Assembly (NCBI RefSeq): GCF_003367175.1
Contig: NZ_QRGA01000006.1
Location: forward strand, 124,001-188,000
From: Trinickia dinghuensis
GTDB taxonomy: Bacteria; Pseudomonadota; Gammaproteobacteria; Burkholderiales; Burkholderiaceae
Reading direction: 5' to 3'
Length of the DNA: 64,000 bases
The notes beneath the pieces are model-generated. The model was not told the origin of the DNA. It saw only the letters and a list, made by a program, of their open reading frames with translations, and did not search any database. This document shows, one piece after another, positions 32,105-41,771 of the stretch. Made by a program: the position numbers and the translations under genes. Position 1 is the stretch's first letter. Each line of letters opens with the position of its first letter.

Positions 32105-32845
32105 CTATCGCAGCGCCGTTCGGCTTCGCAACCCGTCGAGATCGATGACGACGATTCCCCCGTACTCGATCTCGATCAACCCGGCTTCGGCCAGGCGGCG
32201 CAAGGCCGCATTGCACCGTTGCCGAGACAGCCCCGATAGATTCGCGATTTCCTCCTGCGACACACGCAGGTGCGGATCGCTGAGCGGATGCAGCCACGGA
32301 TGGAAGAGGCCCGCGAGCGCGCGTGCGACGTTGCCGTCGGTGTCGAGCAGATGATGCGCGGCAAAATTGCCGAGAAACCACTGCATCCGCTCGTTGATCT
32401 GACGCAGCAGAAATTCGCCGAATGAGGTTTCGTTCGCACGCAGCCAAGCGAACGTATCGGCTGGCAATAGCGCCACGCGGCTCGGCTTCAGCGCGATGAT
32501 GTCCGCGCTGTGCGCGGGGCCCTGCATCAGGGTGCCTTCGCCGAACCAGCTTCCCGTCGATAGCCCGCCGAGCGTGACCGAGCGTCCGTCGTCGCGCGTG
32601 ACCGACCACTTCAGCAGACCGTCGATCGTGCCGTACCAGTATCGCGGCTTGTCGCCGCGCCGGCACAGCGCATGCCCCATCGATACATCCAGTTCGCGAA
32701 TGCGCGCCCGTACTTCTGAGCGAGCCGGCTCGCTCAGCCCCACGTACCAAACCGACTGCGCAAGCAAAGCATCGAGCGTTCGTGCCTGAGAGGGTGAATT
32801 CGACACGCTCGCGCGGTGACGGGAAGGCTGCTTCGAGAGGGACAT
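32105..32845 (-). CDS. Crp/Fnr-family transcriptional regulator
   Basis: A 246-aa regulator with a cyclic-nucleotide-binding-type sensor (MGHALCRRGDKPRYWYGTIDGLLKWSV, GGLSTGSWFGEGTLMQG) at residues 50-150 and a winged HTH at 165-235 (VSQEEIANLSGLSRQRCNAALRRLAEAGLIEIEYGGIVVID). There are no N-terminal Cys residues for an Fnr iron-sulfur cluster. It is divergent from the beta-keto acid cleavage enzyme gene across 197 bp, where no TGTKC palindrome is visible, so it may control the 33-35 kb pair in place of the TetR protein. Confidence 0.88.
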   Translation of the reverse strand: MSLSKQPSRHRASVSNSPSQARTLDALLAQSVWYVGLSEPARSEVRARIRELDVSMGHALCRRGDKPRYWYGTIDGLLKWSVTRDDGRSVTLGGLSTGSWFGEGTLMQGPAHSADIIALKPSRVALLPADTFAWLRANETSFGEFLLRQINERMQWFLGNFAAHHLLDTDGNVARALAGLFHPWLHPLSDPHLRVSQEEIANLSGLSRQRCNAALRRLAEAGLIEIEYGGIVVIDLDGLRSRTALR

Positions 32846-33042
32846 GTGAATGTGCGGCGCGCGCCGGCGCTCGATACGCGTTAACCCTGGCGCAGATTGT
32901 CGTCGCGATGACTGATCGGCGCATGCGGAGGATGAAGAATCTTACTGCACTGGAAAGCCGGCCGGTGCCGTGGTGTCGATGACGCTTCGGGCAAGAACAC
33001 AGCACGCGCCTCCCCGGTCGGCCCATCACAAACGGAGACACC

Positions 33043-33963
33043 ATGGCAAAACGCAAGGTCATCGTCACGATCGCCCCGACCGGCGGGATGGCGCACAAAT
33101 CGCAGAACCCGCAGTTGCCGACCCAACCCGAGGAAATCGCCGACGACGTCGTGCAATGCTGGAAAGCCGGCGCAAGCGTCGCGGCGATCCACGCGCGCCG
33201 TCCCGACGACGGCGCAACCTGCGACGCGTCGATCTACCGCGAGATCAATCGACGTATCCGCGATGCCGGCTGTGACGTCGTGTTGAACAATTCGACCGGA
33301 GGCGGCGTTCATGGCGACATGATCCGCGCGCTACCGGGCGACCGGTGGGAGATCGCGTGGGAGGAACGCATCAAGGGCATGGACGCGGGCGCGGAGATGT
33401 GCACGCTCGATGCGACGACATTGAATCTCACGTTCGGCGACCGGGAAATCCTCATGGATACGCCGATATCGAAAGGCCGCGCGCTCGCGCGAGGCATGAA
33501 GGAACGCGGCATCAAGCCCGAGTGGGAAGTCTTCAATCACACGCATGTGCTGCAGGACGTCACCACGCTGATCGGCGAGGGGCACGACGAAGCGCCGCAT
33601 TTCGTCAACCTCGTGATGAACGTGCATCGGAACTTCCAAAACGCCATGCCCTTCTCCGTACGCTACCTTCAACAGATGGTCGACACGCTGCCGCCGAACA
33701 GCATCTTCTGCGTGAGCGGCATCGGCCCGTCGCAGCTGGAAGCCAACGTCGCGTCCTTGTTGCTCGGTGGACACGCACGTGTCGGTCTCGAAGACAACCT
33801 GTATTTCCGGCATGGCGAACTCGCCACGAACCTGCAGCTCACCGAACGCATCGTCCGAATCATCCGCGAAATGGATATGGAACCGGCAACGCCCGCGGAA
33901 GCGCGGGACATGATGGGGCTGCCCCGCGGGAGCAGTCCAAGACCCGAGTTCGCGCCACGTTGA
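33043..33963 (+). CDS. Beta-keto acid cleavage enzyme (BKACE, DUF849)
   Basis: A 306-aa TIM-barrel enzyme. Known BKACEs (founder: Kce, 3-keto-5-aminohexanoate cleavage enzyme) condense a beta-keto acid with acetyl-CoA and split it to acetoacetate plus a new acyl-CoA, using Zn2+. Visible: VTIAPTGGMAHKSQNPQLP at the N-terminus, AAIHARRPDDG (metal His), CDVVLNNSTGG, PEWEVFNHTHV and FCVSGIGPSQL. GGAGA precedes ATG 33043. It is followed 80 bp later by the phosphotriesterase-like gene. The aminotransferase at 37.9 kb could generate its beta-keto acid. The acyl specificity cannot be read from the sequence. Confidence 0.9.
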   Translation: MAKRKVIVTIAPTGGMAHKSQNPQLPTQPEEIADDVVQCWKAGASVAAIHARRPDDGATCDASIYREINRRIRDAGCDVVLNNSTGGGVHGDMIRALPGDRWEIAWEERIKGMDAGAEMCTLDATTLNLTFGDREILMDTPISKGRALARGMKERGIKPEWEVFNHTHVLQDVTTLIGEGHDEAPHFVNLVMNVHRNFQNAMPFSVRYLQQMVDTLPPNSIFCVSGIGPSQLEANVASLLLGGHARVGLEDNLYFRHGELATNLQLTERIVRIIREMDMEPATPAEARDMMGLPRGSSPRPEFAPR

Positions 33964-34043
33964 ACGTCGCTGACTGGCCGAAACGAATCGGAAATGTCCC
34001 GCTTCGCGCAACGTCATCCTTCACGATCGAGAAAGCGCTTCCA

Positions 34044-35087
34044 ATGACCGAACCCGTCGCCTGCAAAGGCAAGATCCAGACCGTGCTGGGGCCGATCGAA
34101 CCCGAAAGCCTCGGCCCCACGTTGATGCACGAGCATCTGCTGATCGATCTCGTGCCGCCGAGCCTCGCGGAAGACGCCGATCGCGATCAGACCGAGATCG
34201 ATCTGTGCAACTGCTGGAAGATCAACTATGGTCAACAGCGCGCGCTCAAGAACTATCGGTTGAATCAGAAAGACGTCGCAGCGGAAGAACTTCTCGAGAT
34301 GAAGGCCGCCGGCGGGCGCGCGATCGTCGATCTAACGACAGGCGGCCTCAAACCGGACCCGCGGGGCCTCGCACAGATCTCGAGTGAAACGGGTATCCCT
34401 GTCGTGATGGGCTGCGGCCACTACGTGCACGAATATCAGCACCCACGCAACGCAAGTCGCACGGTCGACGATTTCGCCGGCGAGATGATCGAGCACATGA
34501 CGATCGGCGCCTGGGGCACAGAGGTGCGCGCGGGCATCATCGGTGAAATCGGCTGCCAATCGCCGTGGACCGAGCAGGAACAGCGCGTCCTGCATGGCGC
34601 GCTGATCGCTCAGCAGGAAACCGGCGCGGCGTTGAACGTCCATCCCGGCCGTCATCCGGACCAGCCACGGGAAGTCGTCGACCGGATTCGCGAACTCGGT
34701 TTTCCGGTCGAGCGCGCGATCATGAGTCATATCGACCGCACGATTTTCGACGACGACCGCTTGCTGCGCCTCGCCGACAGCGGATGCGTAATCGAATTCG
34801 ATCTGTTCGGATGGGAGCAATGCGCGTATCCGATGTCGGACATCGACATGCCGAACGACGGTACGCGCATGCGGATGGTGCGCCTGCTGTTCGACCGCGG
34901 TCATGGCGAACGCATTCTCATCAGCCACGACATCTGCACACGCACCCGATTGAGCCGATACGGAGGACACGGATATCAGCATATCTTCTCGAACATCGTC
35001 CCTAGGATGCTTCGCCGCGGCTTCACTCAAAATGAAATCGACACGCTGCTGATCGATACGCCTCGACGCCTGCTCGCGCTCGCTTGA
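34044..35087 (+). CDS. Phosphotriesterase-homology (PHP/lactonase-type) amidohydrolase
   Basis: A 347-aa TIM-barrel metallohydrolase. The metal-site HxH is His29-x-His31 in TLMHEHLLID; further ligands are in ALNVHPGRHPD, IMSHIDRT and ILISHDICTRTRLSRYGG (Asp near 295). The position of the carbamylated lysine of true phosphotriesterase reads Glu in IIGEIGCQ, as in E. coli PHP. So organophosphate hydrolysis is unlikely; lactone, carboxylic-ester or amide hydrolysis is more likely. ATG at 34044 was chosen because the family starts just before the GPI...GPTLMHEH block. It lies downstream of the BKACE gene and ends 278 bp before the porin. Confidence 0.85.
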   Translation: MTEPVACKGKIQTVLGPIEPESLGPTLMHEHLLIDLVPPSLAEDADRDQTEIDLCNCWKINYGQQRALKNYRLNQKDVAAEELLEMKAAGGRAIVDLTTGGLKPDPRGLAQISSETGIPVVMGCGHYVHEYQHPRNASRTVDDFAGEMIEHMTIGAWGTEVRAGIIGEIGCQSPWTEQEQRVLHGALIAQQETGAALNVHPGRHPDQPREVVDRIRELGFPVERAIMSHIDRTIFDDDRLLRLADSGCVIEFDLFGWEQCAYPMSDIDMPNDGTRMRMVRLLFDRGHGERILISHDICTRTRLSRYGGHGYQHIFSNIVPRMLRRGFTQNEIDTLLIDTPRRLLALA

Positions 35088-35277
35088 ACTTGAAGGGCGC
35101 GCTTCGCGCCCCACGGCAGTCACCGCGCATCCATCGAACTCGTTGTCTTCAGCGAGGGCGACCGGATGCGCTCGCGCTTTGCCTTCTCGCTTTTCCCCTC
35201 CCGACACCTTTCCCCATCGCTAGAGAAATCGACGAATTTCGTTGCCAATCGTTTTTGTTCGTCATATAACGTTTTCC

Positions 35278-35290
35278 TGTTCAGTGAACA
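35278..35290. promoter_or_regulatory. Palindromic operator site A (porin)
   Basis: TGTTCAGTGAACA, a perfect 5-3-5 palindrome followed by AT, 76 bp upstream of the porin start. It matches sites B (37813) and C (40846); together TGTKCASNGWACAAT. Likely target of the TetR protein at 40,923. Confidence 0.6.
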
Positions 35291-35365
35291 ATGATTCGCG
35301 TTCCTAACGACAGGCGGCGGAATTCCTGCCGGACGATAACAACCATCGCTGCATCGGAGACATTC

Positions 35366-36448
35366 ATGGATTGGAAAACTTTCGGTGGCGGACTAGCGTT
35401 CACGCTCTCCGCTTTCGCGCATGCGCAGTCGAGCGTCACGCTGTACGGCGTCATCGACGACGGCCTGACGTATGTGAACAACCAGCAAGGCCATTCGGTC
35501 TACCGAATGGACGACAGCATCAGTCAAGGCGACCGGTTCGGCCTGCGTGGAGCCGAAGACCTCGGGGGCCGCCTCAAGGCGATCTTCAACCTCGAAAACG
35601 GGTTCAATCCGAATACCGGCGCATTGCGGCAAGGCGGCCTCGAGTTCGGCAGGCAGGCGTACGTCGGCCTGCAAAGCGATGCGTACGGCACCCTGCGCCT
35701 CGGGCGCACCTACGATCAGATGACCACCACGCTGATCCAGTATCACCCCGGCTACTGGAGCGGAATTTACGCGTTCAACATCGGCGACAACGATCGCATT
35801 TCCGGAAACTGGCTAAACAATGCGATCTCGTACACGAGCCCCAACCTTCGAGGTCTGACGTTCAACGCCCAATACAGCTTGAATTCGCTGGGCGCGCCAT
35901 CCAACGGCTATGGCCCTGCCTACAGTCTTAGCGCGAGCTATGCCAACGGTCCGTTCAGCATCGGTGCGGCGACGACGAGCATCCATGACTATGCGGTGAC
36001 GCCGGGCAGCAGTCTCGGCGTCGCCAATTTTCTCGGCGCAGCCGTCGACTTCTCGTCGCAAACCGTCGTCGTGAATCGCTACCGCACGGCGGGCATCGGC
36101 GCTTCGTACTCGTTCGGCACGTTCGGCGTTTCGGGCCTCTATAGCAATACCCGCTACGAAACCGCTACGAACGCGCAAACGCTCCAGAGTATCGATGCCG
36201 TCGCGCACTACTCCGTGCGACCGGACATCGTGATCGCAGGCGGCTACGACTATTCGAGGATGTCGGGATATCGATGGAACGAGTTCAGCGCGGTCGTCGA
36301 TTACCTGCTCTCCAAACGCACCGACGTCTACGTCACGGCCAACTATGACAAGGCTTCCGGCGGCGCCCGCGCGGTGCTCGTCACGCTGCCGTCTTCGAGC
36401 ACCGAGAAGCAGCTCGCGCTGCGCATCGGCATCCGTCACAAGTTCTGA
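35366..36448 (+). CDS. Gram-negative porin (Burkholderia type)
   Basis: A 360-aa outer-membrane beta-barrel protein with a short signal peptide (MDWKTFGGGLAFTLSAFAHA) and mature start QSSVTLYGVIDDGLTYVNNQ. It has the porin_4 pattern: SRFGLRG-like segment (GDRFGLRGAEDLGGRLKAIFNLENGF), EFGRQAYVGL, GTLRLGRTYDQ and a terminal aromatic (GIRHKF) for barrel assembly. GGAGA lies five bases before ATG 35366. It leads a two-gene unit with the MHS transporter 44 bp on. With site A upstream, it appears to be a substrate-specific porin of the catabolic cluster and not a general housekeeping one. Confidence 0.92.
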   Translation: MDWKTFGGGLAFTLSAFAHAQSSVTLYGVIDDGLTYVNNQQGHSVYRMDDSISQGDRFGLRGAEDLGGRLKAIFNLENGFNPNTGALRQGGLEFGRQAYVGLQSDAYGTLRLGRTYDQMTTTLIQYHPGYWSGIYAFNIGDNDRISGNWLNNAISYTSPNLRGLTFNAQYSLNSLGAPSNGYGPAYSLSASYANGPFSIGAATTSIHDYAVTPGSSLGVANFLGAAVDFSSQTVVVNRYRTAGIGASYSFGTFGVSGLYSNTRYETATNAQTLQSIDAVAHYSVRPDIVIAGGYDYSRMSGYRWNEFSAVVDYLLSKRTDVYVTANYDKASGGARAVLVTLPSSSTEKQLALRIGIRHKF

Positions 36449-36492
36449 CACGCGTCCGCGCGGTTTCGGCGGGCACTACAACGGTAAGGATC

Positions 36493-37794
36493 ATGAATCT
36501 CACTTCGCACTCGGCGGCGGGATCGGAAACGCCGCACGTCATCTCCGGCAACGGCGAGCAGCGGCGCGCCATCATTGCGGGCACGGTCGGCTACGTGCTC
36601 GAATGGTTCGACTTCGGCGCCTACGGTTTTCTCGCCGCGGTCATCGCGCACAACTTCTTTCCGGCTTCAAACGAGGTCACGTCGCTGCTCGCTTCGTTCG
36701 GCGTGTTTGGAGTCGGCTTCATCTCGCGCCCGATCGGCTCTCTGGTGCTCGGACGTCTCGCGGATTTGCAAGGGCGCCACCTCACGCTCGCGATGACGAT
36801 GATCCTGATGGCGTGCAGCACAGTCGCCATCGGTCTGCTTCCGACTTACGAGCGCATCGGCATTTGGGCACCGGTACTGCTCGTCGCCGCAAGGTTGATT
36901 CAGGGCTTCGCCGCGGGCGGCGAATGGGGCACGGCGGCCGCGTTTCTCGTCGAATGGGGTGGCGCCAGCCGGCGCGGCTTCTTTGGAGCGTTCCAGCAAT
37001 CGAGCATCGCAGCGGGCCTTCTGCTCGGCTCTCTAACCGCAGCCGTGCTAAGCACGACGCTCACCTCCGACGCGCTCGAATCGTGGGGTTGGCGCATTCC
37101 GTTCGTCCTCGGTGCGGTGCTCGGTCCCGTCGGCATGTACGTGCGCCGCCACGTACAGGATTCTCCGATGTATGAGAACGATACGAGCGCTTACACGAAA
37201 GCCGACGGCGCGGCATTCTCCAGATCGATCTTCCATGCGTTTGCGTTCGTGATCTTCTGGGCGGTCAGTTCGTACATGGTCGCCGTCTACATGCCGACCT
37301 TCGCGAGCAAATATGGTCATATCTCGCGCTCGCAAGCGCTGTGGACCAGTTCGTTGTCGCTGGCGATCGTCACGGTCGCGGCGCCGCTGATGGGCGCGCT
37401 GTCCGATCGCATCGGACGCAAACCGGTGCTGCTCGCGAGCTGCCTCTTCTTTCTCGTGCTGTCGTACCCCCTCTACCGGCTGATCACCGCGACGACGGAC
37501 TTCATGACGTTCTTCTGCGTCCAACTAGTGATGAACGTCGTCTTCACGATGTTCTCCGGCGCGGGCCCGGCGGCGCTCGCCGAAATGTTTCCGACACGGT
37601 CTCGGTCGACCGGCGTTTCCGTCGGCGGCGCGCTGGCAACGATCCTAGGCGGCTTCTCGCCTTTCCTGACGACGTGGACGATTTCGCTGACCACCGCACC
37701 GGCCTCGGCCGGATGGCTGCTCGCCGCGAGCGCGACGATTACGCTGCCCGCCTTGCTGGTGATGAAGGATCGCGCTCGCGCGACGGCGATCTGA
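36493..37794 (+). CDS. MHS-family (metabolite:H+ symporter) MFS transporter
   Basis: A 433-aa, 12-TM transporter of the MHS/ShiA/ProP/KgtP type. Diagnostic parts are VGYVLEWFDFGAYGFLA in TM1, RPIGSLVLGRLADLQGR (MFS motif A), QGFAAGGEWGTAAAFLVEW, and GALSDRIGRKPVLL in the second half. MHS members import carboxylated metabolites with protons. It follows the porin by 44 bp. The natural reading is import of the amino or acyl-amino acid consumed by the downstream aminotransferase and amidase. Confidence 0.92.
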   Translation: MNLTSHSAAGSETPHVISGNGEQRRAIIAGTVGYVLEWFDFGAYGFLAAVIAHNFFPASNEVTSLLASFGVFGVGFISRPIGSLVLGRLADLQGRHLTLAMTMILMACSTVAIGLLPTYERIGIWAPVLLVAARLIQGFAAGGEWGTAAAFLVEWGGASRRGFFGAFQQSSIAAGLLLGSLTAAVLSTTLTSDALESWGWRIPFVLGAVLGPVGMYVRRHVQDSPMYENDTSAYTKADGAAFSRSIFHAFAFVIFWAVSSYMVAVYMPTFASKYGHISRSQALWTSSLSLAIVTVAAPLMGALSDRIGRKPVLLASCLFFLVLSYPLYRLITATTDFMTFFCVQLVMNVVFTMFSGAGPAALAEMFPTRSRSTGVSVGGALATILGGFSPFLTTWTISLTTAPASAGWLLAASATITLPALLVMKDRARATAI

Positions 37795-37810
37795 GTGTTT
37801 GTGAAAATTC

Positions 37811-37827
37811 ATTGTTCACCGTACAAT
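37811..37827. promoter_or_regulatory. Palindromic operator site B (aminotransferase-amidase)
   Basis: ATTGTTCACCGTACAAT holds the 13-mer TGTTCACCGTACA (37813-37825), 77 bp upstream of ATG 37902. TACAAT within the right arm lies 17 bp after TTGTGA (37799), a plausible -10/-35 pair, so a bound repressor would cover the -10 box. Confidence 0.6.
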
Positions 37828-37901
37828 AATTTAATTGTCCAACGCATTACCGGCGCTCTCTCGAACGCTGGCGAAAATCCAATCCACCGCCTCCTATCGT
37901 G

Positions 37902-39215
37902 ATGACATCCACTGCTCCGCTCGCCGTCGCGCTCGAATCCGCGCGCCAAGGATTTATCGCCGCCAACCCGCAAAGCGAGCGTCAATATCGACAAGCCACC
38001 GAGGTCATGCCCGGCGGCAACACGCGCTCCGTGTTGTTCTACGAGCCGTTCCCACTTGCGATCGCGCGAGGAGAAGGCTGCCGCCTTTGGGACGTCGACG
38101 GCCATGAATACGCCGACTTCATCGCGGAATTCAGCGCAGGCATATACGGCCATTCGAATCCGTCGATTCGCGCCGCGATCGACAAGGCGCTCGACGACGG
38201 CATCAATCTGAGCGGCCACAATCTGCTCGAAGCGCGCCTCGCACAGGCCCTCTGCGAGCGCTTTCCGTCGATCGAATCGGTGCGCTTCACCAACTCGGGC
38301 ACCGAAGCGAATCTGATGATGCTGGCCGCGGCCAAGGCCTTCACCGGGCGGCAAAAGGTGATCGTGTTCATCGGCGGCTATCACGGCGGCGTGCTGACGT
38401 TCGCGCGCGGGCCGAGCAGCGTGAACGTGCCGCACGAGTTCCTCTACGCCGAATACAACGATCTTGACAGCGTGCGGCGTCTGTTCGACGAGCATCGCGG
38501 CGAAGTCGCCGCCGTGCTCGTCGAGCCCATGCAGGGCGCCTCCGGCTGCATCGTCGCAGAGGCGTCGTTTCTCGCGGGGCTTCGCGAACTGACATCGGCG
38601 CACGACACCTTGCTGCTGTTCGATGAAGTGATGACTTCCCGGCTCGCGCCGGCCGCGTATCAATCCGTACTCGGCATCGCGCCGGACATGACGTCGGTCG
38701 GCAAATACATCGGCGGCGGAATGTCATTCGGTGCATTCGGCGGACGCAAGGACATCATGAGCCTGTTCGATCCGCGCATTCGCAACGCACTTCAGCACGC
38801 GGGCACGTTCAACAACAACGTGTTGACGATGGCCGCGGGCTACGCGGGCCTCACGTCGGTTTATACTCCGCAGGCTGCGGTTGAGCTCAACGCTCGCGGC
38901 GAGCGTCTACGTGCAACGCTCAACACGCGTTTCGAAGAAGCATCGTTGGACATACGGTTCAACGGCATCGGATCGCTGATGAATCTGCAGATCACCGCGC
39001 GCACGATCCGCTCCGTGCGCGACATCGATGCGTCGCGGAACGACATTAAGGATTTGTTCTTCTTCCACTTGATCGAGCACGGTGTGTACATCGCGCGGCG
39101 CGGCTATGTCGTGCTGAGCCTGCCGGTCGGCAGTGCCGAACTGGAGCGCTTCGACGGGGCCGTGGCGAGCTTCATCGATCGGTACCGCAATCTCCTGCCG
39201 CGCGAAACGCTATGA
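37902..39215 (+). CDS. Class III aminotransferase, beta-phenylalanine aminotransferase-like
   Basis: A 437-aa PLP enzyme of the glutamate-1-semialdehyde aminotransferase-like group. It matches, almost block by block, what I recall of the Variovorax paradoxus beta-phenylalanine aminotransferase: MPGGNTRSVLFYEPFPL with the substrate-carboxylate Arg (near residue 42), HEYADFIAEFSAGIYGHS, SGHNLLEARLAQALCERFP, FTNSGTEANLM, GGYHGGVL, VEPMQGASGCI, FDEVMTSRL, PLP lysine in SVGKYIGGGMSFGAFGG and RRGYVVLSLP with the second Arg (near 400). These enzymes convert beta-amino acids to beta-keto acids with 2-oxoglutarate. A GTG at 37899 is the alternative start. Its stop overlaps the amidase start (ATGA). 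Confidence 0.88.
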   Translation: MTSTAPLAVALESARQGFIAANPQSERQYRQATEVMPGGNTRSVLFYEPFPLAIARGEGCRLWDVDGHEYADFIAEFSAGIYGHSNPSIRAAIDKALDDGINLSGHNLLEARLAQALCERFPSIESVRFTNSGTEANLMMLAAAKAFTGRQKVIVFIGGYHGGVLTFARGPSSVNVPHEFLYAEYNDLDSVRRLFDEHRGEVAAVLVEPMQGASGCIVAEASFLAGLRELTSAHDTLLLFDEVMTSRLAPAAYQSVLGIAPDMTSVGKYIGGGMSFGAFGGRKDIMSLFDPRIRNALQHAGTFNNNVLTMAAGYAGLTSVYTPQAAVELNARGERLRATLNTRFEEASLDIRFNGIGSLMNLQITARTIRSVRDIDASRNDIKDLFFFHLIEHGVYIARRGYVVLSLPVGSAELERFDGAVASFIDRYRNLLPRETL

Positions 39216-40747
39216 CGACCGCGCACGAACTCGTTACTTTGAGCGCCGCGACACTGCGGCAGATGATCGCGCGCAAGGCCATCTCGCCGGTCGAACTATT
39301 GGACGCATGCATCGCTCGGATCGAGGATCTGAATCCGTTCGTCAACGCGATCGCCGCGACCGATTTCGATACCGCGCGCGCTGCCGCCCGCGCCGCCGAA
39401 GTGCAGGTATTGCGCGGCGAACGGAATGGACTGCTGCACGGCCTGCCCGCCGGCATCAAGGACCTCGAGGCCACCGCGGGACTGTTGACCACGCACGGCT
39501 CGCCGCTCTACCGCAACGACGTGCCCAGCGCCGACAACCTGCTCGTCGCGCGCCTGCGCAAGGCGGGCGCGATCATCGTCGGCAAGACCAACGTGCCGGA
39601 ACTCGGCGCCGGCGCGAACACGCGCAATCCCGTTTGGGGCGCGACGGGCAATCCGTTCGATCCGAATATGACCGCGGGCGGTTCGTCGGGCGGCTCGGCG
39701 GCGGCGCTCGCCTGCGACATGCTGCCCGTTTGCACCGGATCGGACACGGGCGGCTCGCTACGCATTCCGGCGGCGCTGTGCGGTGTCGTCGGATTTCGTC
39801 CATCGCCGGGTCTGGTGCCGAGCCCGCGGAAGCTGCTCGGCTGGACCCCGATTTCCGTGGTCGGGCCGATGGGCCGTTCGGTGGCCGACGCGCGTCTGCA
39901 ATTGGCGGCGACGGCTGGAGTCGATCACGGCGATCCGCTCAGCTATCCGCTTTCGCCGCACGCGTTCGCGCAACACCGTCCGATCGACCTGGCTACACTG
40001 AAAGTGGGCTGGACCGAGGACTTCGGCGTGTGCGCCGTCGACGACGACATTCGCCGAACGTTCCGCGAAAAGCTGTCGGCGATGCGTTCGATGTTTGGAA
40101 GCTGCGAACAGGTATCGATCGATTGCGCGGATGCGCATCGCGTTTTCGACGTGATTCGAGCCGAGAGTTTCGTCGCCGGACTCCGCGCGCAGTACGAGAG
40201 GGATCCCGGCTCGCTCGGCCCGAACACACGCGCGAACTACGAACTCGGCGCCCAAATGACGCTCGCCGACGCCGCGTGGGCGCATGCCGCGCAGACTGCA
40301 TTGACGCGGCGCTTTCAGACGCTCTTCGAACACTGCGACGTCATCCTCGCGCCGACCACTCCCGTGTCGCCGTTCGCATGGACATCGATGTTTCCGCCCG
40401 TCGTCGGCGGAGAAACGCAGACGAACTACTATCGCTGGCTTGCGCTCACCTATGTCGTCACGCTGTTCGCGAATCCGGTCGTGACGCTGCCTTGCGGCGT
40501 CGACCATGCAAACATGCCGTTCGGGATCCAACTGATCGGACGGTTTCGCGCGGACACGAAAGCACTCGACATCGCCGAATCGTTCGAACACGCGTTCGCA
40601 TCGTCACCCGCGCTCGCGCGGCCGCGTCCCGACCTGCAAAAACTGCGGACCGTGACGATCGCACCGGCGCTCACGTCGATCGTCACGGCCCCGCCTTCGC
40701 TTGCGGGCGATCGCATCGCAGGCTCGCCGGCCACGTCGCTCGTCTAG
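39212..40747 (+). CDS. Amidase-signature hydrolase
   Basis: A 511-aa amidase with the full Ser-cisSer-Lys triad: Lys83 in LPAGIKDLEAT, cis-Ser158 in AGGSSGGSAAAL and nucleophile Ser182 in GSDTGGSLRIPAA. It is cytoplasmic (no signal). ATG 39212 overlaps the aminotransferase stop by four bases, so the two proteins are made together. The likely role is to release a beta-amino acid from its amide or N-acyl form, or to hydrolyse a carbamoyl or amide group on the substrate before transamination. The 40 C-terminal residues are Ala/Pro/Ser-rich and probably unstructured. Confidence 0.88.
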   Translation: MTTAHELVTLSAATLRQMIARKAISPVELLDACIARIEDLNPFVNAIAATDFDTARAAARAAEVQVLRGERNGLLHGLPAGIKDLEATAGLLTTHGSPLYRNDVPSADNLLVARLRKAGAIIVGKTNVPELGAGANTRNPVWGATGNPFDPNMTAGGSSGGSAAALACDMLPVCTGSDTGGSLRIPAALCGVVGFRPSPGLVPSPRKLLGWTPISVVGPMGRSVADARLQLAATAGVDHGDPLSYPLSPHAFAQHRPIDLATLKVGWTEDFGVCAVDDDIRRTFREKLSAMRSMFGSCEQVSIDCADAHRVFDVIRAESFVAGLRAQYERDPGSLGPNTRANYELGAQMTLADAAWAHAAQTALTRRFQTLFEHCDVILAPTTPVSPFAWTSMFPPVVGGETQTNYYRWLALTYVVTLFANPVVTLPCGVDHANMPFGIQLIGRFRADTKALDIAESFEHAFASSPALARPRPDLQKLRTVTIAPALTSIVTAPPSLAGDRIAGSPATSLV

Positions 40748-40845
40748 CCGATTACATCCGCCCTCCTACCGTGCCGCCCTTCGATGTGGTGGCACGGCGC
40801 CCCTCGATCGCCGTCCGCTTCCACGAACGCAGCAGTCGTTCTCCC

Positions 40846-40858
40846 TGTGCAGGGTACA
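40846..40858. promoter_or_regulatory. Palindromic operator site C (tetR)
   Basis: TGTGCAGGGTACA followed by AT, 65 bp upstream of the tetR GTG. It matches sites A and B and again contains a TACAAT that could be a -10 box. This fits autorepression. Confidence 0.55.
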
Positions 40859-40922
40859 ATCCCGACTTGTCCGAAATCCAATCGCGCCGGCCCGGCGAAT
40901 ACGGTTATCAGCAGACCTTCAC

Positions 40923-41771
40923 GTGACTTCGAAAGCAAGCAAACCTGCCGCGCCGACATCGTCGCGGCGTGCAGCGCTCAAAAAGCCCGCTAACGCACCG
41001 GCCGTCAAACGCGCGCGCGCGGACGCGGCGCGAAACGACGTCGTGCAGGACGACAAGGCATTGAGCCGGGACCGGATCGTTGCCGTCGCGCTCGAGCAGA
41101 TCGATCGCCACGGACTCGCTGCGCTGACTGTCCGGGAAGTAGCTCGTCAACTCGACGTCTATCCCACTGCGATCTACTGGCACGTCCCGAACCGCGACGC
41201 ATTGCTGGCGGCCGTGGTCGAACAGACCATGTCCGGTGTCACGCCAGATCTCGGCAGTGCGACCTGGCAAGACTGGCTGCGCGAGCTATTCGTGCGCTAC
41301 CGAAAAGCCGTCGGCCAGCACCCCAACGTCGCGCAACTCGTCGGCGCGCAACTCGTGAGCAATGCGAACCTCAGCCCGCTGCTGATCGACCGCATCCTGT
41401 GCGTGCTGCTGGCCGCCGGCTGTCCGGAAGACCACCTCGCCGACATGTACAACGTCGTGATCGCAGGCATGGTCGGTTTCGTGACCCTCGAATTCGCGCC
41501 GCTCCCCACCGACGACTCGGCCAACTGGGCCGCACAGCTTCAAGAGCGCGTGCATTCCATTCGCGCGATGGAGTTTCCGACGCTGGCGCGGCATTTACCG
41601 GCGCTCGCCAACAAAGCGTTCATCGTTCGGTGGCAAAGCGGCAGCGAAGTGCCGATGGAATCGGCGTTCAATGCCCATGTCGAAGTCACGATCGCCGGCA
41701 TCGAGCGAATGCTGGAAGCGCCGGAGCCGGCGAACGCCGCGTCTCCACGGCGTAGCCGCGGCAGCCGCTGA
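40923..41771 (+). CDS. TetR-family regulator of the beta-amino acid cluster
   Basis: A 282-aa regulator. A 38-residue Lys/Ala/Pro/Arg-rich N-terminal arm precedes a TetR HTH at about residues 45-95 (LSRDRIVAVALEQIDRHGLAALTVREVARQLDVYPTAIYWHVPNRDALLAAVVEQ). The C-terminal ligand domain resembles TetR_C_1 (TetR/AcrR with an NVAQLVGAQLVSN segment). The GTG start at 40923 lacks a clear ribosome site; upstream sequence in frame is Arg-rich. It closes the catabolic cluster, and the three TGTKC palindromes nearby are its likely operators. Confidence 0.85.
   Translation: MTSKASKPAAPTSSRRAALKKPANAPAVKRARADAARNDVVQDDKALSRDRIVAVALEQIDRHGLAALTVREVARQLDVYPTAIYWHVPNRDALLAAVVEQTMSGVTPDLGSATWQDWLRELFVRYRKAVGQHPNVAQLVGAQLVSNANLSPLLIDRILCVLLAAGCPEDHLADMYNVVIAGMVGFVTLEFAPLPTDDSANWAAQLQERVHSIRAMEFPTLARHLPALANKAFIVRWQSGSEVPMESAFNAHVEVTIAGIERMLEAPEPANAASPRRSRGSR

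Follow-up and report, generated by a model that had tools for sequence, protein, structure and literature searches.

Two Paraburkholderia strains, BS115 and PsJN, were reported to transaminate (S)-beta-phenylalanine, with acetophenone arising by decarboxylation; what becomes of the keto acid afterwards was called uncertain (PMC6150868). The main text of that report uses 'CoA' twice, both times on beta-alanine, and there proposes no coenzyme A (CoA)-dependent capture of the keto acid, unlike the reading given here. We describe an island of seven genes (33043..41771) in a 64,000-nucleotide stretch of Trinickia dinghuensis contig NZ_QRGA01000006.1, hereafter the window. The island probably encodes, judging from its genes and their relatives, a route for N-acyl aromatic beta-amino acids with an unusual DUF849 enzyme, DUF849 being the family of the beta-keto acid cleavage enzymes (BKACEs). 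With the beta-phenylalanine aminotransferase VpAT (PDB 4ao9) and with Paraburkholderia beta-phenylalanine degradation it shares the aminotransferase family, the likely first catabolic step and a setting in related bacteria. It offers a candidate gene for the capture of the very keto acid whose fate the Paraburkholderia report left uncertain.

Parallels exist for the joining of a beta-transaminase to a BKACE. A CORE cycle module engineered in Escherichia coli combines a beta-alanine:pyruvate transaminase with BKACE15 (PMC11961710); there too a beta-transaminase feeds a BKACE, but the module is synthetic, its substrate aliphatic and its BKACE canonical. In lysine fermentation, the BKACE Kce is preceded by a beta-amino acid dehydrogenase, which likewise removes the beta-amino group ahead of cleavage, and a variant route has a HemL-like beta-transaminase, Kat; however, Kat acts downstream of Kce, on a CoA ester, and the pathway is anaerobic (PMC3149608). 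Our literature searches, which reached few subscription papers, found no natural route from an aminotransferase to a DUF849 enzyme among the papers listed. An earlier sequence-only reading of the window had thought the joining of the two families new; within the scope of our searches this held for natural routes, whereas the engineered module anticipates it and lysine fermentation is partly alike. A functional analogy is offered by VceA and VceB of Sphingobium SYK-6, which turn vanilloyl acetic acid into vanillate, a case of hydroxyphenyl-beta-ketopropionates going to hydroxybenzoates. VceB is described as an aroyl-CoA thioesterase, and VceA is probably a DUF849 protein.

We propose the following route. 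A porin and an MHS-family symporter would import an aromatic beta-amino acid, N-acylated or free, and a PTER-like amidohydrolase, perhaps also the amidase, would release the beta-amino acid. With an alpha-keto acid as amino acceptor, the aminotransferase would leave an aroylacetate (3-aryl-3-oxopropanoate), which the DUF849 enzyme would cleave before it decarboxylates to an acetophenone, most likely with acetyl-CoA to give aroyl-CoA and acetoacetate. The aroyl-CoA would enter the Box pathway, or a thioesterase, encoded beside DUF849 in some relatives and elsewhere in the window's genome, would free the aromatic acid. The genome encodes BoxB (928 bits, cut-off 499) and PobA (669 bits, cut-off 539), and thus has outlets for benzoyl-CoA and 4-hydroxybenzoate. 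What we observed are the genes and their families, the recurrent linkage, the surroundings of the DUF849 clade and the conserved PTER residues; from these we infer the substrate, all the reactions and the order in which they run. We judge the chances of the whole route, from uptake through deacylation and transamination to aroylacetate and its capture by DUF849, to be slightly better than even.

All seven genes, from DUF849 to TetR, were found with open reading frames in one plus-strand run, as the sequence-only reading had described, and Pfam and NCBIfam were concordant on their families. The class III beta-aminotransferase (37902..39215, plus strand) is of the VpAT type. Among solved structures it is closest to 4ao9, a beta-phenylalanine aminotransferase with which it aligns end to end (529.5 bits, residues 6–435), and the second and third PDB matches are the beta-transaminases 6iz9 and 2yku. 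At the positions of the StoTA motif (P17, V38, T47, E70) it has P, V, A and E, three of the four as counted by eye; the motif was named for aromatic beta-aminotransferases, yet is not confined to aromatic substrates (PMC10589169).

A neighborhood search for DUF849 beside VpAT-like aminotransferases, proposed in the sequence-only reading, did find co-occurrence, in 5 of 80 aminotransferase loci and one further genome (L107), in varied gene orders. The 80 loci (L001–L080) were the best of 433 relatives, and DUF849 was sought in them by tblastn at 1e-15. The five with DUF849 (L001, L002, L003, L005, L006) showed the five highest aminotransferase identities (66–76%). Where the aminotransferase was at least 61% identical, DUF849 was present in 6 of 12 examined loci (L001–L008, L107, L108, L120, L121), a cut chosen after the loci had been seen; the count becomes 6 of 13 once L009 (60%, without DUF849) is added. 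On the aminotransferase side, the plasmid pair H1/H41 (P. graminis), spaced as in L001, was not recounted. In the window DUF849 precedes the phosphotriesterase homologue, and in L001 the two are divergent. In L002 amidase and thioesterase genes come first, then DUF849, and in L003 DUF849 lies on the opposite strand with thioesterase and 3HCDH genes. L005 has the order aminotransferase–thioesterase–DUF849, L006 has DUF849 directly 3' of the aminotransferase, and L107 has aminotransferase–second aminotransferase–thioesterase–DUF849. Some of the relatives with a thioesterase gene are apparent operons. The stretch of L004, which has a thioesterase-like gene, ends about 700 bases past the aminotransferase. 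The second class III aminotransferase, 26–28% identical to the window's, follows the first both in L107 (10187-11629) and in L108 (9117-10559), which are of the same genus.

A maximum-likelihood tree of 25 DUF849 proteins argued for a pairing of more than one origin. The seven aminotransferase-linked proteins, a group defined once the linkage was known but ahead of tree building, need three changes on it, at least two forced by well-supported branches, although the changes may include losses of linkage. A tree that keeps the seven together is worse by 73.9 log units (p-AU 7e-6 in the approximately unbiased test). Since the linked proteins do not form one clade, the pairing has probably arisen on more than one occasion. 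We also counted how rare the parts are. The DUF849 clade (E ≤ 1e-90) was found in 2 of 11 genus genomes and in 7 of 399 order-sample genomes (no more than 5 candidates per genome were scored). The aminotransferase was found in 3 of 11 genus genomes (E ≤ 1e-120), 3 of 200 family-sample genomes (E ≤ 1e-140) and 2 of 399 order-sample genomes (E ≤ 1e-130), and the PTER-like protein in 1 of 11 genus genomes (E ≤ 1e-110). Each count includes the window's own genome, and absences in the large samples are soft because few candidates were scored per genome; for the aminotransferase in the order sample, for instance, 4 of 24 candidates were scored at first. Since the DUF849 clade is rare in the order sample yet recurs near the aminotransferase, the linkage is more than chance.

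Several observations weigh against the proposed route. DUF849 was found in none of the 72 more distant aminotransferase loci (L009–L080, Variovorax included; 11 loci shorter than 10 kb), and the idea of a widely shared pairing was rejected on that count; the pairing is restricted to one aminotransferase lineage. Two Paraburkholderia plasmids within the 61% cut (L120, L121; aminotransferase 61–65%) have no DUF849 nearby, in a stretch that is unannotated. Seen from the DUF849 side, an aminotransferase was near in 1 of 16 places (H1, by coordinates); the other 15 (L084, L086–L092, L109–L115) gave no match at 1e-15, in a set that leaves out H5–H7, H11 and H12. The window's island itself holds no thioesterase gene. 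In strain BS115 acetophenone was nearly equimolar, so that the keto acid can escape capture in some strains (PMC6150868).

The identity of the likely substrate came mostly from the neighborhoods of the DUF849 clade. A plasmid search with the window's DUF849 protein returned 597 records; of the 40 that were listed, 13 were at least 53% identical (H1–H13), followed by a gap to about 40%. We looked at seven of these neighborhoods (L086–L092), for which the gene table is incomplete. The clade DUF849 gene lies with gentisate dioxygenase and FAD monooxygenase genes in L090, with a cupin, fumarylacetoacetate-hydrolase and maleylacetoacetate-isomerase set in L089, with a ring-cleavage-type dioxygenase and maleylacetate reductase in L092, and with 4-oxalocrotonate decarboxylase and its neighbors in L088. 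The Sphingobium plasmid L087 has a biotin-carboxylase and HAD set resembling the Hpe aryl-ketone carboxylation cluster, for which such a make-up was described (PMC9618137). L091 has a Crp/Fnr–MFS–DUF849–3HCDH set, and in L086 the gene lies amid transposases. Thioesterase genes occur in four of the seven (L087, L090, L091, L092). The window's own genome carries a second clade DUF849 gene (contig C49, L084:4658-9290; 62% identical) with Crp/Fnr (54%), MFS transporter and 3HCDH genes, a phenol-hydroxylase-type monooxygenase gene and a thioesterase-like gene under its family cut-off. The L084 set resembles a route for 3-hydroxy-3-arylpropanoates. In L115 a hydantoinase A/B pair has caprolactamase as its top match (517 and 239 bits), ahead of acetophenone carboxylase subunits (365 and 176 bits); none of these scores reaches its cut-off. 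A 3HCDH homologue was present in 7 of the 15 aminotransferase-free places (L084, L089, L090, L091, L109, L112, L114), and could supply that keto acid starting from a beta-hydroxy acid. No plainly aromatic neighbor was seen at L086, L110, L111 or L113. Because the neighbors are mostly genes of aromatic catabolism, the likely substrate of the clade is an aroylacetate, here from an aromatic beta-amino acid; the earlier claim that a beta-keto acid is channeled to DUF849 is refined to this compound, probably. A BKACE group accepting benzoylacetate has been published (PMC4922564). Two further gene contacts of the clade were noted: a UPF0261 (Tm-1-like) gene directly 3' of DUF849 in L087 (7939-9171), and an adjoining polysaccharide-deacetylase/PuuE-like gene in L113 (8655-10517), possibly another amide-cleaving partner.

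The same neighborhoods bear on an aminocarnitine route, in which the aminotransferase would make dehydrocarnitine from (N-acyl-)aminocarnitine and DUF849 would be the dehydrocarnitine cleavage enzyme, with a betainyl-CoA thioesterase acting next. L003 combines DUF849, a thioesterase and a 3HCDH protein that NCBIfam places closest to L-carnitine dehydrogenase (352 bits), and the same three families occur in Citricoccus L117, whose 3HCDH is 52% identical to that of L003. The L003 match falls under the carnitine cut-off of 414, however. The DUF849 protein of L117, for its part, carries H-x-H, shares 38% identity with the window's and branches outside the clade (support 100/100). With L117 as a proxy for CdhC, the window's protein did not group with the cdh-like set; L117 is annotated by family alone, and its reading as a carnitine operon is our own. 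Most neighbors of the clade are genes of aromatic catabolism, and for two of the MFS proteins nearby (L084:5993-7387 and L003:15389-16960) the second-best match is the 4-hydroxyphenylacetate permease HpaX. A literature search over titles and the openings of abstracts found nothing on bacterial aminocarnitine catabolism among the papers listed. We consider this route improbable.

The DUF849 protein (33043..33963, plus strand) is probably the aroylacetate-cleaving enzyme, although its active site is altered. It matches PF05853 over its full length (264.4 bits, profile positions 1–274 of 274), as Kce and the BKACEs do. We aligned 22 clade members with three outgroup plasmid proteins and three PDB chains (28 rows); L118 and PDB 3c6c were identical at every shown column and are perhaps one protein, so the six comparison rows are not fully independent. 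E162, the likely counterpart of the catalytic Glu E171 of BKACE15 by our own reading of the spacing to Tyr173, was invariant in 28 of 28 rows, and H50, R246, E250 (the third zinc ligand) and D251 were also retained. A Glu was proposed as the catalytic base in BKACE (PMC11961710). The window's protein has F164 at the position of the catalytic Tyr145 of Kce; Phe stands there in 5 of the 6 comparison rows too. In place of Glu14 of Kce it has Met16.

Two changes set the clade apart from Kce and the BKACEs, and both count against BKACE chemistry. The first zinc-ligand His of the H-x-H motif is Ala in 22 of 22 clade members (A48-x-H50 in the window) and His in 6 of 6 comparison rows. The Arg of the GIGR motif is replaced in 22 of 22 by P, A, T or M (P229 in the window). 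This Arg corresponds to the CoA-contact Arg226 of BsfD provided that chain 9zsc is BsfD, whose residues 48, 50 and 226 fit as counted by eye. In the flavophos paper His48, His50 and Glu247 were named as zinc ligands, the zinc was called catalytically requisite, and a DUF849 enzyme with different chemistry was described (PMC12871164). Published DUF849 groups include some without BKACE activity or with decarboxylase activity (PMC4922564). It is therefore possible, though doubtful, that the clade enzyme acts on aroylacetate by other means, such as water- or CoA-dependent C–C cleavage, or decarboxylation, its metal site being rebuilt or absent; such a scheme overlaps the proposed route in everything except the final enzyme step. 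The retained E162, H50, R246, E250 and D251 speak for BKACE-like catalysis instead, and the thioesterase neighbors suggest an acyl-CoA product. AlphaFold2 modelling on a 6-row alignment gave a poor result for this protein (mean per-residue confidence, pLDDT, 50.2); the model was set aside, and the residue replacing the lost His could not be placed in it. Because the zinc His and the CoA-contact Arg are lost, BKACE chemistry is something we infer, and we did not class the protein as a strict BKACE. The sequence-only reading's BKACE assignment is upheld by the PF05853 match and the catalytic Glu, and weakened by these two losses; the A-x-H protein may work like a BKACE nonetheless. Our finding points to a DUF849 clade without one zinc ligand of the studied enzymes. 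We suggest only tentatively, at less than even chances, that the clade is a separate enzyme type with a rebuilt metal site, capturing aroylacetates that come from aromatic beta-amino acid transamination, 3-aryl-3-hydroxypropanoate dehydrogenation and aryl ketone carboxylation. Together with the aminotransferase and a PTER-type deacylase it would then allow natural mineralisation of N-acyl aromatic beta-amino acids without loss as acetophenone.

The PTER-like amidohydrolase (ATG 34044..35087, plus strand; PF02126, 241 bits), a phosphotriesterase homologue, is probably an N-acyl-beta-amino acid deacylase. It is 41% identical to PTER (9efa, 9efb), and its AlphaFold2 model reached a pLDDT of 79.9. 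Metal ligands H28, H30, E167, H199, H228 and D295 (mouse H26, H28, E169, H201, H230, D298) were invariant in 10 of 10 PTER-like proteins; our residue numbers omit the first Met, and mouse positions were mapped by eye through the 9efa alignment. The substrate residues Arg204 and Arg233 of mouse PTER correspond to R202 and R231, also kept in 10 of 10 and missing in two other PTE-family chains of the alignment (3k2g, 3rhg), and Tyr263 is kept in the window's protein. The differences from PTER are a bacterial setting, a place within an aminotransferase cluster, and Cys297 in 10 of 10 at the position of His300, a predicted substrate contact. PTER prefers N-acetyl-beta-alanine over N-acetyl-alpha-alanine, and a mouse R204 mutant lost activity on N-acetyltaurine while its activity on N-acetyl-beta-alanine doubled (PMC13311154). 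Given the mutant, the retained R204 alone is no argument for a beta-amino carboxylic acid substrate, which counts against our proposal. The preference of PTER and the conserved R204, required for N-acetyltaurine, would suit a taurine-like compound or aliphatic beta-amino acids (beta-alanine, 3-aminobutyrate) as the substrate, with DUF849 taking an aliphatic beta-keto acid, and BKACEs do accept malonate semialdehyde and aliphatic beta-keto acids. Such substrates are nonetheless unlikely, since the aminotransferase is closest to a beta-phenylalanine aminotransferase, the clade neighborhoods are aromatic, and His300 is Cys in all ten proteins. Returning to aromatic substrates, removal of the acyl group may fall to the PTER-like enzyme no less than to the amidase, which refines the sequence-only reading's claim that an island hydrolase frees the beta-amino acid. 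The island thereby suggests that bacterial relatives of PTER, a reported feeding regulator in mice, deacylate beta-amino acids.

We then considered candidate regulatory sites. The gene for a TetR-family regulator (40923..41771, plus strand; PF00440) is kept alongside aminotransferase genes (homologue in L001–L007, L107, L108). TetR-type operator candidates lie before the porin (CTGTTCAGTGAACAA, 35277..35291, one mismatch to the pattern) and before the aminotransferase (TTGTTCACCGTACAA, 37812..37826, no mismatch). We derived the motif by eye, using L001, L002, L107 and the window. Outside that set, L003–L006 have three or four sites each at ≤1 mismatch (the one at L006:7205 lies at the predicted start of an open reading frame). 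Over all 80 loci, the palindrome TTGTWCRNYGWACAA occurs at ≤1 mismatch in 8 (L001–L006, L008, L016), mostly ahead of cluster genes. At ≤2 mismatches the window has three positions versus 0, 0, 1, 0 and 0 in five shuffles that preserved local base content only. At 3 mismatches (pattern with S at position 8) it has 11 versus 5.48 expected, and 2 of 100 shuffles were as high, which is not strong; we claim only the sites with no or one mismatch. A promoter and terminator scan gave no excess over shuffles. The palindrome also stands near the aminotransferase or TetR gene in two DUF849-free loci (L008:9891, L016:6865-6887).

No TetR-type site at ≤2 mismatches precedes the window's DUF849 or PTER-like gene, a further point against a single route. 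The DUF849 gene instead has a divergent Crp/Fnr-family regulator gene (32105..32845, minus strand; PF00027 and PF13545), absent from the sequence-only reading's island list, whose homologue adjoins DUF849 in L109 (71%, 225 amino acids). Upstream of DUF849 lies a candidate Crp/Fnr-type palindrome, TGTCGTCGCGATGACT (32898..32913), weak alone: at ≤3 mismatches the window has 2 sites versus 0.56 expected, and 10 of 100 shuffles reach 2. A similar palindrome stands ahead of the L109 DUF849 gene, and the search pattern was taken from that site. Two kinds of candidate operator thus seem to split the window's genes, which also speaks against the route as one unit. In relatives, a TetR-type site precedes the PTER-like gene (L001, L003, L004, L005), the site in L001 lying between it and the divergent DUF849 gene, and in L005, L006 and L107 the site before the aminotransferase would serve DUF849 if the genes form one transcript. 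The single regulated route of the sequence-only reading is thus plausible for the apparent operons of relatives, and less so for the window.

The nearest relatives of the window's DUF849 protein (L109–L111, 78–81% identical) have genes for a Crp/Fnr regulator and an ABC binding protein beside them, but no aminotransferase. Together with the Crp/Fnr neighbor, its palindrome and the acetophenone release in Paraburkholderia (PMC6150868), this would fit an uncoupled DUF849 that serves another, merely adjacent pathway while the aroylacetate decarboxylates to an acetophenone. We regard uncoupling as decidedly unlikely: the pairing appears to have more than one origin, and aminotransferase and DUF849 are co-directional in L005, L006 and L107. 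On the simplest reading, two modules, Crp/Fnr–DUF849 and PTER–porin–MHS–aminotransferase–amidase–TetR, were joined here, and relatives joined them separately.

The remaining island genes are also on the plus strand. The Gram-negative porin (PF13609) occupies 35366..36448; its open reading frame opens at 35291, and the more likely start codon lies at about 35366. The MHS-family metabolite/H+ symporter follows (36493..37794; TIGR00883, 369 bits, under its cut-off of 443), and porin, symporter and TetR genes accompany the aminotransferase in several relatives. The amidase-signature hydrolase (39212..40747; PF01425, 319 bits) overlaps the aminotransferase by 4 bp and reached no cut-off among the 25 of 26 matching NCBIfam families that were listed. 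ARAGORN found no tRNA in the 64-kb window. The island is flanked by a tRNA 2-selenouridine synthase gene downstream, and by the Crp/Fnr regulator and an acid phosphatase gene upstream. Near the L001 cluster lies a phage-integrase gene (L001:2845-3768), a possible sign of transfer.

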